DNA of 64,000 nucleotides from NCBI GenBank assembly GCA_028279655.1, contig JANQNH010000021.1, forward strand, positions 1 to 64,000, written 5' to 3'. A model generated the notes under the pieces. It had not been told where the DNA came from, made no database searches, and saw nothing but the letters and a program-made list of their open reading frames with translations. Within the stretch, counting starts at the first letter, position 1. Every line of letters begins with the position of its first letter. Of the stretch, positions 30,534-52,523 are shown one piece after another. This stretch comes from Candidatus Nanoarchaeia archaeon. GTDB lineage: Archaea > Nanobdellota > Nanobdellia > Woesearchaeales > JACPBV01. The translations under genes and the position numbers were made by a program.

Positions 30534-30544
30534 TTTTGTTCAAA

Positions 30545-31654
30545 ATGAAAGCAGTACTGGCGCTAAAAGATGGAACGGTGTTTTCCGGAAAGGGATTTGG
30601 AGCAGAGAAAGAGATAGGAGGGGAGGTGGTTTTTAATACCTCTTTGGTTGGTTATGAAGAGAGCCTTACTGATCCCAGCTATAAAGGGCAGATTTTGACT
30701 CTGACTTATCCTTTGATTGGGAATTATGGAGTAAGGAAGGATAGTTTTGAGTCTGATGGGATCCAGGTAGAGGGTTTTGTGGTAAGGGAGCACCAGGATT
30801 TCTATTCACATCGTGGTGCTGTTAAGGGTGTTAGTGATTTTCTTAAGGATTTTGATATCCCAGGGATATCCGGGATCGATACAAGGATGCTTACAAAGAA
30901 GATAAGAGAGCATGGTGTGATAAATGGCTCTTTGGTAACTTCTAAGGATAAGATCGATGTTGAGTCTGTTGTTGAGAAGGCAAAGAAGCTGGAGGATTAT
31001 TCCAGTTTTGACCTATTGCCGAAGGTTTCTGTTAAAGAGAAGGAGTTTATCGATGCTAAGGGTATTGTGCCCAATAGTTCAAGCAAAGCTCGAACTGATA
31101 AGACAATAGCGATGATCGATACTGGTGTTAAATTAAGCATTGTCCGTAATTTTATCAAAAGAGGGGTTAATGTTTATAGGCTGCCATATAATGTGAAGCC
31201 GGATGAGATTAAGGACCTAAAGGTTAATGGTTTGTTTGTTGCTAATGGTCCTGGTGATCCTGAAAGGGCTGTTGATGCTATAAATGCTGTAAGAGAATTG
31301 CAGTCTGAATTACCCATAACAGGAATCTGTTTTGGGAACCAGATTATTGGGCTTGCCCTGGGAGGGAAAACCTATAAGCTAAAGTTCGGGCATAGAGGGA
31401 CTAATCAGCCCGTAAAGAATATTTCTGAGAATAAAGTATATATTACATCACAGAACCACGGATTTGCTGTTGATAAAGACAGTTTAGATGGAACAGGGCT
31501 TAATGTTTCACACATTAATCTTAATGATGGTTCGGTTGAGGGATTGAAGCATGAAAGATTGCCGATACAATGTGTTCAGCACCATCCGGAGAGTAATCCT
31601 GGTCCGTGGGATACTGAGCATACGTTTGATGACTTTGTTAGGGAGTTGAAATGA
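30545..31654 (+). CDS. carA: Carbamoyl-phosphate synthase small (glutaminase) subunit
   Basis: 369 residues from the ATG at 30545 (a TTG at 30536 is less likely). It hydrolyses glutamine and channels ammonia to CarB, for arginine and pyrimidine synthesis. N-terminal domain KAVLALKDGTVFSGKGFGAE, FNTSLVGYEESLTDPSYKGQI; C-terminal class I amidotransferase with nucleophile Cys in ITGICFGNQIIG and catalytic His/Glu in QHHPES. The last codons overlap the start of the LAGLIDADG gene (ATGA), where carB would be expected to begin. Confidence 0.96.
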   Translation: MKAVLALKDGTVFSGKGFGAEKEIGGEVVFNTSLVGYEESLTDPSYKGQILTLTYPLIGNYGVRKDSFESDGIQVEGFVVREHQDFYSHRGAVKGVSDFLKDFDIPGISGIDTRMLTKKIREHGVINGSLVTSKDKIDVESVVEKAKKLEDYSSFDLLPKVSVKEKEFIDAKGIVPNSSSKARTDKTIAMIDTGVKLSIVRNFIKRGVNVYRLPYNVKPDEIKDLKVNGLFVANGPGDPERAVDAINAVRELQSELPITGICFGNQIIGLALGGKTYKLKFGHRGTNQPVKNISENKVYITSQNHGFAVDKDSLDGTGLNVSHINLNDGSVEGLKHERLPIQCVQHHPESNPGPWDTEHTFDDFVRELK

Positions 31655-32742
31655 TAGCTACTACTCCGAAAAATACAGGGCATTCATCATTTGATTATGA
31701 TTTTCAAAAGCTTATCATTCCAGAAAAGAGTGATTTTATGAATAATAAACAAAAATCAAATAAAATTGAAATGAAAGTGCATTTTTGGGAGTTACCAGAT
31801 ACAATCAAAATTAGATTAAATAGTGTCTACTCTAAGAAGTTATTTAGTAGGTTACTAATTAAATTTAATTCAAAACTAATCTCCAAGAAATTAGGTGTAT
31901 CTAGATCACATTTTTACCACTTAAAAAATCAAAGATACTCAATTAAACCTTCTCAATTAGTTAAGATATCTATGCTTTTAGATGAGGATTTAAATGTCAT
32001 TGAAAAAAACATTGAATATATTAATTCTACTCGTGGAGGGGTTTCAAGATTCAAATTTCCATTAGTTGGCGATGAGAATTTATCTTCACTAATAGGACAT
32101 TGCTTTGGTGATGGAAGTATTTTTACTAAAAAACCACAATTTAAGTTTTGTAACTTTAACCAATATTCTCTGGATGAAGTAGAATCAATTATTGAAAAAC
32201 AATTTAAAAGTCCAAATATTGGTAAGACTAAAACTACAATAGCTTATTCCTCACTAATTGGAGAAATTCTTCACCACTTTGGTGCACATAGAGGCCATAA
32301 GCTGAAATTGAATGTTGAATTACCTAATTGGATTAAAGCTGGAAGCGATAAAATAAAATCTAGGTTCTTAAGAGCATTATTTGATGACGATGGTTCTGTG
32401 TCTTCTTCAGGAAAAAATAAGAATATTAATCTTCATCAAACTGTTTTATGTGAATATAATTCTTACTCGAAAGATTTTCTTAAATCTGTAGCTGGTATGC
32501 TAAAAGACTTCAATATCAGAGTACATGGCCCTTATTTATCCAGAACTTATAGTGTAGATGGAAAAAGGAGAAACGTTAATTATATAATAATAACTGATTG
32601 GAAGAGTATGGAAAACTTTTCTAATAGAATAAATTTCTATCATTCTGAGAAGAAAGAAAATTTGAAGAGGGTCTTAGATAGGAAAGAGTACTCAAAGAAT
32701 TTTGAGGAGGTGAAAACAAATCCCAAAACGCAAAGATATTGA
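31651..32742 (+). CDS. LAGLIDADG homing endonuclease between carA and carB
   Basis: 363 residues. A helix-turn-helix-like N-terminus ([19 protein letters not shown], about 76-95) precedes two LAGLIDADG motifs, [10 protein letters not shown] (about 147-156) and [11 protein letters not shown] (about 239-249), the single-chain two-motif type that cuts a long asymmetric site. The ATG overlaps the carA stop; an internal ATG at 31738 is an alternative start. The last 23 bases overlap the carB reading frame in another frame. It is more AT-rich than carA and carB. It is not an intein, because the carB frame is not continuous with it. It probably drives spread of itself and of the 23-nt carB intron 54 bases downstream. 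Confidence 0.88.
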
Positions 32743-35700
32743 AAAAATAATGGTAATAGGTAGTGGGCCAATTATTATCGGACAAGCCGCTGAATATAAG
32801 CAATAAGCTTTATCAGAGTCGACTATTCCGGTACTCAGGCCTGCAAAGCCTTAAGAGAAGAAGGATATAAAGTAGTTTTAGTCAATTCTAATCCTGCAAC
32901 AATAATGACTGATCCTGATATGGCTGATGCAATATATATCGAGCCTTTAAATCCTGAGATCCTATGTGAGATTATCCGTAAGGAGAGGCCTGATGGTCTT
33001 TTGCCTACAATCGGAGGGCAGACAGGATTAAATCTGGCGGTTGCTGTTGCTAAAACAGGAGTATTGGAGGAATGCAATGTTGAGGTTTTAGGGACATCTA
33101 TAGAATCTATCGAGGAAGGAGAAGATAGAGAGCTTTTTAAGAAGCTGATGATAGAGATTAAGGAACCTATCCCTAAGAGCAAGACTGTGAATACTGTTTC
33201 TGAGGCTAAGGAGTTTGTCAAACAGATCGGGCTGCCGGCTGTGATAAGGCCAGCTTACACTTTAGGCGGAACAGGAGGGGGGATTGCTTTTACTGATGCT
33301 GAGCTTGAAAAGATTACACAGCATGGACTTAATCTAAGTCCTATAACACAGGTGTTAATAGAACAGGCAATATTAGGGACAGCAGGATGGGGGGAGTTTG
33401 AGTTAGAGGTTATGAGGGATAAGAACGACAATTGTATCATAATCTGTCCTATGGAGAATTTTGATCCTATGGGTATACATACTGGAGAGAGCATAGTGAC
33501 TGCTCCAACGCAGACATTAAATGATCATGATTTTCAGACCTTACGTACCTCTGCTATCAAGATTATCAGGGCATTAAAGGTCAAAGGGGGATGCAATATC
33601 CAGTTTGCTCTTAATTATAACACTGGAGAGTATGTGATAATCGAGGTCAATCCGAGAGTGAGCAGATCATCTGCACTTGCATCCAAAGCTACTGGTTATC
33701 CTATTGCCAGGATAGCTGCAAAGATAGCTATAGGTATGACACTTGATGAGATACCCAATGATGTAACTAAAGAAACGAAAGCTTGTTTTGAGCCAACAAT
33801 CGACTATGTGGTTGTGAAGATACCCAGATGGCCTTTTGACAAGTTTGAAACTGCAGACAAAAGAATTGGAACACAGATGAAATCTACAGGGGAGACTATG
33901 GCTATCGGCAGAACCTTTGAAGAGTCTTTGCAGAAGGCTATCAGAAGCCTGGAGGTAGGTAGATTTGGATTAGGGCATGACCCTAAGGATAAGGTATGTT
34001 CAGATAATGAAGAGATCATCAGTAATTTGAAGGTTGCTACGCATAAAAGGATGATGTATGTCCGGGATGCAATAAAGTGTGGGATCAGCCCTTCTGAGAT
34101 ACATGAGATAAGCGGAATAAACCAATGGTTTCTGGAGAAGGTAAAAAATATCTATGATATCGGAGAGAAGATAGAGTTAACCAAGGAATCTATTCTTTTG
34201 GCTAAAAGGAACGGATTTTCTGATGTTCAGATTGGTACTGTTGTAGGGAAGAGTGAGAAAGAAGTGAGGCAGTTTAGGATTTCAAATGGAGTAATACCAA
34301 CTTATAAGATGGTGGATACATGTGCTGCTGAGTTTAAGGCATATACCCCCTATATGTATTCAACTTACGAGAGAGAGGATGAATCAAATCCTACTGACAA
34401 TGATAAAAAGGTTATTATTGTTGGTGGGGGGCCTATTAGAATAGGGCAAGGGATTGAGTTTGACTATGCTTGTGTACATTCGGTCTTTGCTTTGAGGGAA
34501 CTTGGATATGAGGCCTTGATAATAAATAATAATCCTGAAACGGTTTCGACTGATTTTGATACATCTGATAAATTATATTTTGAGCCTTTAACGTATGAGG
34601 ATGTTCTTAATATCATCGAGAGGGAGAAGCCTTATGGTGTGATATTGCAGTTTGGAGGACAGACCCCTATCAATATGGCTATGAAACTAGAAGAAGCAGG
34701 GGTTAATATATTGGGAACACAGCCTTCAAGCATAGATACTGCAGAGAACAGGAATAAGTTTGGTGCAATCCTTGACAGATTAGGTATTCCCTCTGCTGAT
34801 TGGGGGACTGCTTTTTCGTTTGAAGAGGCTCTAAAAACAGCAAACAAGATTGGCTACCCTGTTTTGGTTAGGCCATCTTATGTTTTGGGTGGAAGAGCAA
34901 TGCAGATTGTGGATAATGATGAGGAATTAAAAGGTTATATGAAGGAGGCTGTTAATGTCAGTCCTGAACATCCTGTTTTGATTGATAAGTATCTTGCGAA
35001 TGCTATTGAACTTGATGTAGATGCTCTTTGTGATGGGGATTCGGTCTTTGTTGCTGCGATAATGGAACATATCGAGGAGGCAGGGGTTCACTCTGGAGAT
35101 AGTGCCTGCGTAATACCTCCCCAGAATATTTCTGATTCTATCAAAGATAAGGTAATTGAATACACTAAGAAATTGGCTGTTGAGCTAGGTACTGTTGGGC
35201 TGATAAATATGCAGATGGCTGTAAAGGATGATGTAGTCTATATTCTTGAGGCAAATCCCAGGGCTTCCAGAACTGTGCCTTATGTGAGTAAATCTGTAGG
35301 TGTTCCTCTGGCTAAGATGGCTACAAAGATCATGCTAGGAAAGAAACTCTCTGAGCTGGGGCTTAAGGAGTATAAGGAGCCTAAGTTTGCATCTGTTAAA
35401 GAGGTCGTGTTTCCTTTCTTGAAGCTGCAGGGAGTGATTCCAGAGTTAGGGCCAGAGATGAAATCTACCGGAGAGGTAATGGGTATTGATTCCAACTTTG
35501 ACAGGGCTTTTTTTAAGGCGCAGGCTGCTGCAGGTGTTGAACTTCCTTCAAAAGGTAATGTTCTTATGGCTATCGGCAAGGACAAACATAAGATAGAAGC
35601 AATACCTCTGGCTAAGGAGATTATCGAGATGGGATTCAAGCTTTATTGTACAAGGAGTACTGCAGATATCTTCAAGGAAAATGGTGTTGAGTCTGTGAAG

Positions 35701-35961
35701 GTCCCTAAGATAAGGGATGATCCTCTGGTTCTGGAGATGATGAAGAAAAAGGAAATACAATTAGTGATAAATATCCATAGAGGAAGCCATCCTAAGAGCG
35801 ATTCTTCTACTATAAGGAGGGCTTGTGTTGAGCTGGATATTCCATGTATAACCAGGATGAGCTCAACAAAAGCTGCCATCAGGGCAATAAAGGCATTGAC
35901 TAATGATAAGATTTCTGTTAATTCTTTGGAAGAGTATTACAAGGAATTTAATAATATATAA
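32720..35961 (+). CDS. carB: Carbamoyl-phosphate synthase large subunit, interrupted by a 23-nt intron
   Basis: Joined 32720-32795 and 32819-35961 encode about 1,072 residues, the normal CarB length. Two ATP-grasp halves (first [26 protein letters not shown] and [18 protein letters not shown]; second [43 protein letters not shown]), metal-site [25 protein letters not shown] segments in both, and a C-terminal allosteric MGS-like domain. Without splicing the frame hits TAA four codons after Glu (TAT AAG CAA TAA). The start is uncertain: the codon aligned with the usual initiator Met (before PKRKDI) is ATC at 32720, though a perfect GGAGGTGA lies 7 bases upstream; the first ATG in frame is 32750. 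The gene follows carA and the endonuclease. Confidence 0.92.
32796..32818 (+). other. Bulge-helix-bulge intron in carB
   Basis: 23 nt. Pairing: outer GCCG with CGAC (one mismatch), 4-bp central helix CTGA/TCAG, 3-nt bulge ATA on the 5' side and AGT on the 3' side, inner helix TAAGC/GCTTTA around AATAA. The archaeal splicing endonuclease cuts between nucleotides 2 and 3 of each bulge (AT|A and AG|T), which joins GAAT to TCGAC and restores codons GAA TTC GAC (E-F-D) of the invariant EFDYSG motif. Confidence 0.9.
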
Positions 35962-52378: not shown

Positions 52379-52389
52379 TTTAAATAAAA

Positions 52390-52480
52390 TGGGCCTGGAA
52401 GGATTTGAACCCTCGACCTTTAGCTTAGAAGGCTTACGGAGAATATCTTTACCGCTCTATCCAAGCTGAGCTACAGGCCC
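52390..52480 (-). tRNA. tRNA-Arg (TCT) with an intron in the anticodon stem
   Basis: Acceptor GGGCCTG/CAGGCCC with A73, D-stem GCTC/GAGC, T-stem GAGGG/CCTTC around TTCAAAT. The anticodon loop CTTCTAA (TCT) is intact; the 5' side of the anticodon stem is split. Removing 16 nt (52434-52449) joins ...GGTA to GC and gives stem GTAGC/GCTAA (four pairs plus one mismatch at 27-43). The splice fits a relaxed bulge-helix-bulge: central helix GCGG/CCGT (one G-T), bulges TA|A and AA|G. Position 29/30 is non-canonical. Mature length about 75 nt. Confidence 0.82.
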
Positions 52481-52523
52481 ATAAACCATTAGAATGAGTA
52501 TTTCATTTATAAATGTTATTAAA

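Follow-up and report, generated by a model that had tools for sequence, protein, structure and literature searches.

The window analysed here comprises 64,000 nt (G000:C13:1-64000) of an assembly of 2.07 Mb in 39 contigs, which is 89.9% complete. The putative DPANN lineage suggested by the first-pass annotation of this DNA holds, since the window genome (G000) falls, in the scheme used for our searches, within the same order as MAGs titled Candidatus Woesearchaeota or Nanoarchaeota. On the forward strand, the gene for the small chain of carbamoyl-phosphate synthase (carA, 30536–31654; an ORF with PF00988 and PF00117) lies upstream of a LAGLIDADG homing-endonuclease ORF (31651–32742), which overlaps the carA stop codon and is followed, in a different frame, by carB. 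The endonuclease ORF was identified by a PF14528 match (E 6e-8), by alignment with its homologues (alignment A1) and by its predicted structure (mean pLDDT 84), for which Foldseek returned 7qsu, 2dch, 1dq3 and 1vde, representing LAGLIDADG endonucleases of inteins and archaeal introns. A search for a phage origin of the endonuclease yielded no match at E 1e-5 among 50,697 phage records.

The carB gene is represented by exon 1 (32723–32795), assigned by direct reading and by alignment with intact carB genes, and by exon 2 (32819–35961), which is open for more than 1,000 codons up to its stop codon, with its domains intact. The start codon of exon 1 is uncertain: the frame is closed upstream by a TGA at 32711–32713, the first in-frame ATG is located at 32750, and no in-frame ATG, GTG or TTG was found ahead of it. 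As a carB start codon is not evident and the endonuclease is devoid of the C-terminal domain that is present in P0002 and P0003, the closest related sequences in alignment A1, the window copy may be decaying. Several of the endonucleases share a similar leader (window 31690–31770; columns 1–65 of A1), with some of them starting at MNNKQKSNK; this leader may correspond to conserved 5' sequence and not to protein. Elsewhere in the window, at 52389–52481 on the reverse strand, ARAGORN called a tRNA-Asn(ATT) whose D arm and anticodon arm are separated by an additional hairpin; it may be a tRNA of different identity that contains an intron.

A predicted bulge-helix-bulge intron in carB

Direct reading confirmed that carB is interrupted by 23 nt at 32796–32818, as had been described in the first-pass annotation. 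At IGQAAE, the gene reads GGA CAA GCC GCT GAA T ATAAGCAATAAGCTTTATCAGAG TC GAC TAT TCC GGT, the insert introducing a frameshift and an in-frame TAA and splitting the F codon (T|TC) before the frame resumes. The fold proposed earlier for this insert was likewise found, together with an outer stem: a central 4-bp helix is formed by CTGA in the exon (32790–32793) and TCAG in the intron (32813–32816), flanked by the 3-nt bulges ATA (32794–32796) and AGT (32817–32819), with an inner stem inside, and these elements are those expected of a bulge-helix-bulge (BHB) intron. When each bulge is cut behind its second base, between 32795 and 32796 and between 32818 and 32819, GAA TTC GAC is obtained, whose deduced product (EFD) corresponds to the intact EFDYSG of genomes of the same family (G001, G002 and G003). 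Among 4,753 nearby cut pairs scored for BHB geometry this pair ranked first, with all four pairs of the central helix formed, and minimum free energy folding of 61 nt around the insert gave a z-score of −2.40, with 4 of 200 shuffled sequences being equally stable. The insert thus has the structure of a BHB intron, and its excision from the carB mRNA is predicted.

A second, intact carB was sought in the genome and none was present; PF02786 matched only the window carB and one other gene, a 630-aa open frame that matches a carB fragment at only 24%. A group I or group II intron was rejected, as no such Rfam match was obtained (only a tRNA reached a gathering score in the window) and 23 nt is far too short, and an intein was rejected because the insert shifts the frame and contains a stop codon, and carB and the endonuclease ORF are in different frames.

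The window genome encodes a single tRNA splicing endonuclease, EndA (PF01974, 190 aa), which aligns to the enzymes of N. equitans and M. jannaschii (3iey and 1a79) and in which the positions of Tyr, His and Lys, which we take to be the catalytic residues, are matched. One gene for the ligase RtcB was found, itself carrying two mini-introns in its active-site region, so that splicing of the rtcB message would itself depend on help from the ligase.

Interrupted carB genes across the order

A carB fragment matched 113 of the 352 genomes of the order, in some cases only through other ATP-grasp genes. carB was read at 93 loci representing 92 genomes (G033 twice, as L016 and L108), of which 91 were assessable, as L040 starts at a contig edge; G018 (L017), which begins inside carB, was left out of the counts, and of six loci that the script left unassigned, five were found to be intact by eye. 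The first-pass annotation had proposed a search of related genomes for intron-less and intron-bearing alleles, and both were obtained, with 73 carB genes being intact and 18 interrupted. The latter carry 23 inserts of 17–36 nt at two sites, designated here as site A (E|FDYSG; 16 genomes) and site B (GSGAL|K; seven genomes), with five genomes interrupted at both. The conserved motif was regained in all 18 spliced proteins, and the weakest case, the site B insert of G282, ranked 159 of 5,390. Outside the set of genomes of the order, three further site A inserts were identified, in two Micrarchaeota records (JACRGH010000060, 32 nt; JACRGC010000016, 29 nt) and in one unclassified archaeon (JANLHD010000069, 42 nt).

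Additional lesions were observed in some of these genes, namely an extra in-frame TAG in the carB of G137 and a deletion and frameshift in that of G142 (L034 and L035 among the loci concerned), and the rtcB of G134 (L217) is devoid of the stretch between PIGG and IGFD; decay or assembly errors are possible in these cases.

Predicted mini-introns in rtcB and metK

The insert had originally been described as a small intron in a metabolic enzyme; this was supported by our analysis, in which it also proved not to be a lone case, as inserts recur in the carB genes of relatives and in rtcB and metK. In total, 51 inserts of 12–42 nt were collected, 26 in carB, 23 in rtcB and two in metK. The rtcB of the window genome (L162, G000:C35:112932-114245, reverse strand) has two in-frame TAG codons and carries two inserts, of 30 nt in PDAHFG|YG and of 18 nt in GF|DINCG. 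Fifteen further rtcB genes were opened because of stop codons or split matches and do not represent the 314 rtcB-bearing genomes at random. Mini-introns were found in 16 genomes (22 inserts and a further one, of 12 nt, in G241), and all 16 rtcB genes regained their motifs, one motif of G158 having S where relatives show W, E or F. The 12-nt insert of G241 (L164), located in SPGG|IGFD, has a BHB-type cut and is too short for an inner stem, and its inner-stem score is meaningless because just five bases are left for the loop. In metK, a 29-nt BHB insert is located in GHPDK|VCD of the window genome (L154, G000:C31 ~222470-222570), and G177 carries a 31-nt insert at the same position.

In many rtcB genes of the order (L204–L229), inteins several hundred residues long seem to be present near the mini-intron region. 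Among 32 genomes with two rtcB matches that were searched again, those with a single open frame of ~950–1,040 aa and a split near residue 50 were read as containing inteins and rejected as intron carriers. Nine others were opened, eight of which have mini-introns, while G271 is intein-like.

When 48 inserts were scored for BHB geometry, 47 were among the best 1% of nearby cut pairs, with a score (central helix ×2, outer helix ×0.5) that had been re-weighted after a first version, with the outer helix at full weight, placed the inserts of G022 and G013 low or off the list. For each insert the best-scoring of one to six protein-restoring cuts was taken, and the p values of this scoring are therefore optimistic by up to that factor. 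The central helix has four pairs (G-U allowed) in 34 of the 48 inserts and three in the other 14, in which the outermost central pair is mismatched. In the inner helix, 88–94% of the cells of four site groups are paired, with as many as five types of pair at one position, compared with means of 49–65% after shuffling, although for the seven site B introns some shuffles equalled the observed pairing. The predicted intron helices covary. Among 49 inserts of known phase, 26 are in phase 0, 21 in phase 1 and two in phase 2, so that 23 split a codon.

LAGLIDADG genes adjoining interrupted genes

The seven best homologues of the window endonuclease outside the window, among the 352 genomes, are all located directly upstream of a carB with a site A insert. 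Overall, an endonuclease gene was found directly upstream of 8 of the 16 site A carB genes and of none of the 75 others (Fisher test blind to the tree, 1.5e-7), and also in all three of the further records; each of the 11 carB-adjacent endonuclease genes is thus beside a site A insert. In a control for the tree, only four well-supported independent pairs remained, with none against (p 0.125). At L038 only 65 nt of upstream sequence was available, and its lack of an endonuclease therefore says little, while G013, which is interrupted at site B only, has a 63-aa endonuclease match that looks like a remnant. At three loci (P0004, L230 and L118), the endonuclease frame continues into exon 1 of carB and terminates within the intron.

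In the window genome, a LAGLIDADG ORF also overlaps the start of metK, and another LAGLIDADG gene is located divergently upstream of rtcB. The metK endonuclease family (L243–L251) adjoins metK in all nine readable loci, two of which (the window genome and G177) have the intron; among the metK loci, G035 is a truncated copy and G288 ends at a contig edge, and several intact metK targets read VADQ, IADQ, MSDK or HADK. Next to rtcB, endonuclease-like matches were found at four of eight loci tested (divergent in the window genome; G205; weak in G241 and G172). The family beside rtcB was rejected as a homing partner of that gene, its relatives adjoining other genes at all ten loci read. With two introns among nine metK loci and the rtcB relatives located elsewhere, intron and endonuclease are closely paired at carB but loosely at rtcB and metK. 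The neighbours of 15 other LAGLIDADG places in the window genome were read by eye, and inserts were noted in metK and rtcB only. In other genomes of the order, free-standing LAGLIDADG genes were observed beside endA, htpX, aspS and ribosomal protein genes (L171–L180), and no inserts were noticed by eye at these loci.

Distribution and flanking sequences of the predicted carB introns

Tree and codon comparisons were based on 85 carB rows of at least 120 codons, with L034 and L035 left out. On a carB tree built from few columns and with many open forks, the 14 intron-bearing rows require 14 changes, compared with a mean of 13.1 for shuffled labels, and the starred branches alone force at least five intron changes; the scattering of predicted introns over the carB tree is clear. 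Near the insertion site, synonymous codon identity was 0.45–0.54 among intron carriers and 0.32–0.42 among intact genes, with smaller gaps farther off. When the BHB-forming codons were removed a small excess remained, which was above 500 of 500 random sets and, with the duplicate locus removed, above 300 of 300. As the raised identity sits mostly in the BHB-forming codons, the flanking signal lends weak support to co-conversion.

Proposed mechanism and alternative explanations

The carB insert is probably a BHB intron of the mRNA, cut by EndA and joined by RtcB, whose spread is likely to have proceeded via the adjoining LAGLIDADG endonuclease. According to this proposal, the tRNA splicing endonuclease would cut the intron out of the carB mRNA and RtcB would join the exons. 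The LAGLIDADG endonuclease would cut intron-less carB at the E|FDYSG site, and repair would then copy the intron and the upstream endonuclease gene together (collaborative homing), with the intron, by splitting the target, protecting the host's own DNA from cutting. Extended to the whole set of inserts, the proposal becomes one of a mobile class of mRNA introns, in which, in DPANN archaea, BHB introns of 12–42 nt would settle in the parts of carB, rtcB and metK that specify active-site regions and would be spread through collaborative homing by LAGLIDADG genes located outside the intron, with the interrupted sole RtcB gene found in the window genome forming a self-dependent loop. For this wider version we consider the balance to be slightly favourable.

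Much less likely is that the mini-intron is real and spliced while the neighbouring endonuclease is an independent, free-standing gene without a role in its spread. This explanation would account for the half of the site A introns that have no endonuclease gene, for the metK endonucleases, which are mostly beside intact metK, and for the free-standing LAGLIDADG genes that adjoin many other genes at which no introns were noticed. It is at odds with carB, where the endonuclease gene occurs only with the site A intron, both in the order and in the further records.

A very improbable arrangement is that the endonuclease ORF is itself part of a second BHB intron of 1,021 nt (31701–32721), which would link carB to an upstream ATG. 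With these junctions in their best BHB pairing the frame is kept and a start codon would be provided; however, 8 of 200 shuffled junction pairs scored equally well, for which this intron was rejected, and the carB genes of relatives generally have their own start behind the endonuclease.

It is more doubtful still that the window carB is a pseudogene in decay or results from an assembly error. The broken frame, the start codon that is not evident and the truncated endonuclease would be consistent with such an origin, as would the further lesions in the carB genes of G142 and G137, but exon 2 is open and intact in its domains in what is the sole carB of the genome, and 16 genomes of the order, as well as three other records, share a similar insert at this site in independent assemblies. 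Least credible is an unspliced insert that the ribosome passes by translational hopping or frameshifting: the hairpins of the inserts, which lie next to stop codons and close to a homing gene, resemble known bypass elements such as that of T4 gene 60, yet hopping from one whole codon to another would not restore the T|TC codon of the window carB or the codons split by 23 of 49 inserts, and the bulge geometry and cut positions obey the BHB rule.

Relationship to known systems and implications

Small BHB introns of an archaeal protein gene are known from the cbf5 pre-mRNA of crenarchaea, in which introns of 16–44 bp are removed by the splicing endonuclease (Yokobori 2009, PMC2738675; also Watanabe 2002). 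The carB introns resemble these in kind and differ in gene and phylum; the cbf5 introns are said to lack the length needed for encoding a homing nuclease, and their description, in the relevant passages, mentions no adjoining endonuclease gene, unlike the situation at carB (PMC2738675). The BHB introns of archaeal rRNA likewise combine BHB splicing with LAGLIDADG homing (PMC2738675, PMC6125680), whereas in that case the endonuclease is encoded inside the intron and the host gene specifies rRNA, while at carB it is encoded outside an intron that interrupts a protein gene. In phages, ORF-less group I introns are mobilised by free-standing endonucleases in collaborative (trans) homing (PMC3984707). 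The endonuclease is similarly encoded outside the intron there and, as proposed for carB, would cut the intron-less insertion site, but the phage introns are self-splicing group I elements, in contrast to the archaeal BHB introns of 17–42 nt in carB, for which we infer the cleavage. Protein-gene inserts as small as the 12-nt insert in the rtcB of G241 also have a parallel in the putative 12-bp introns reported by Peng et al. for an archaeal virus genome (in PMC2738675), the differences being the viral host and the putative status of these introns, with no homing gene mentioned in that account.

According to the pertinent section of a 2020 paper, the cbf5 intron was the only further archaeal BHB intron reported, beside the processed 5' UTR of that study (PMC7714728). 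Among the matches listed from the open-licence literature, with bioRxiv outside it (in one listing the best 10 of 1,176), no introns in archaeal carB, rtcB or metK were reported, and no endonuclease encoded outside a BHB intron was described among them. The proposed system would thus consist of known parts, with BHB introns recognised by their structure and collaborative homing by the arrangement of the genes, while RNA splicing and DNA cutting are predictions from the sequence.

If the proposal is true, intervening sequences in protein genes would be common in some DPANN archaea, and ordinary gene finding would break or truncate the genes that carry them. BHB introns would be mobile while coding for nothing, and the long-standing question of how introns become associated with homing endonucleases would become directly testable. 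In addition, a tRNA ligase gene that needs the ligase for its own expression would raise a regulatory question.
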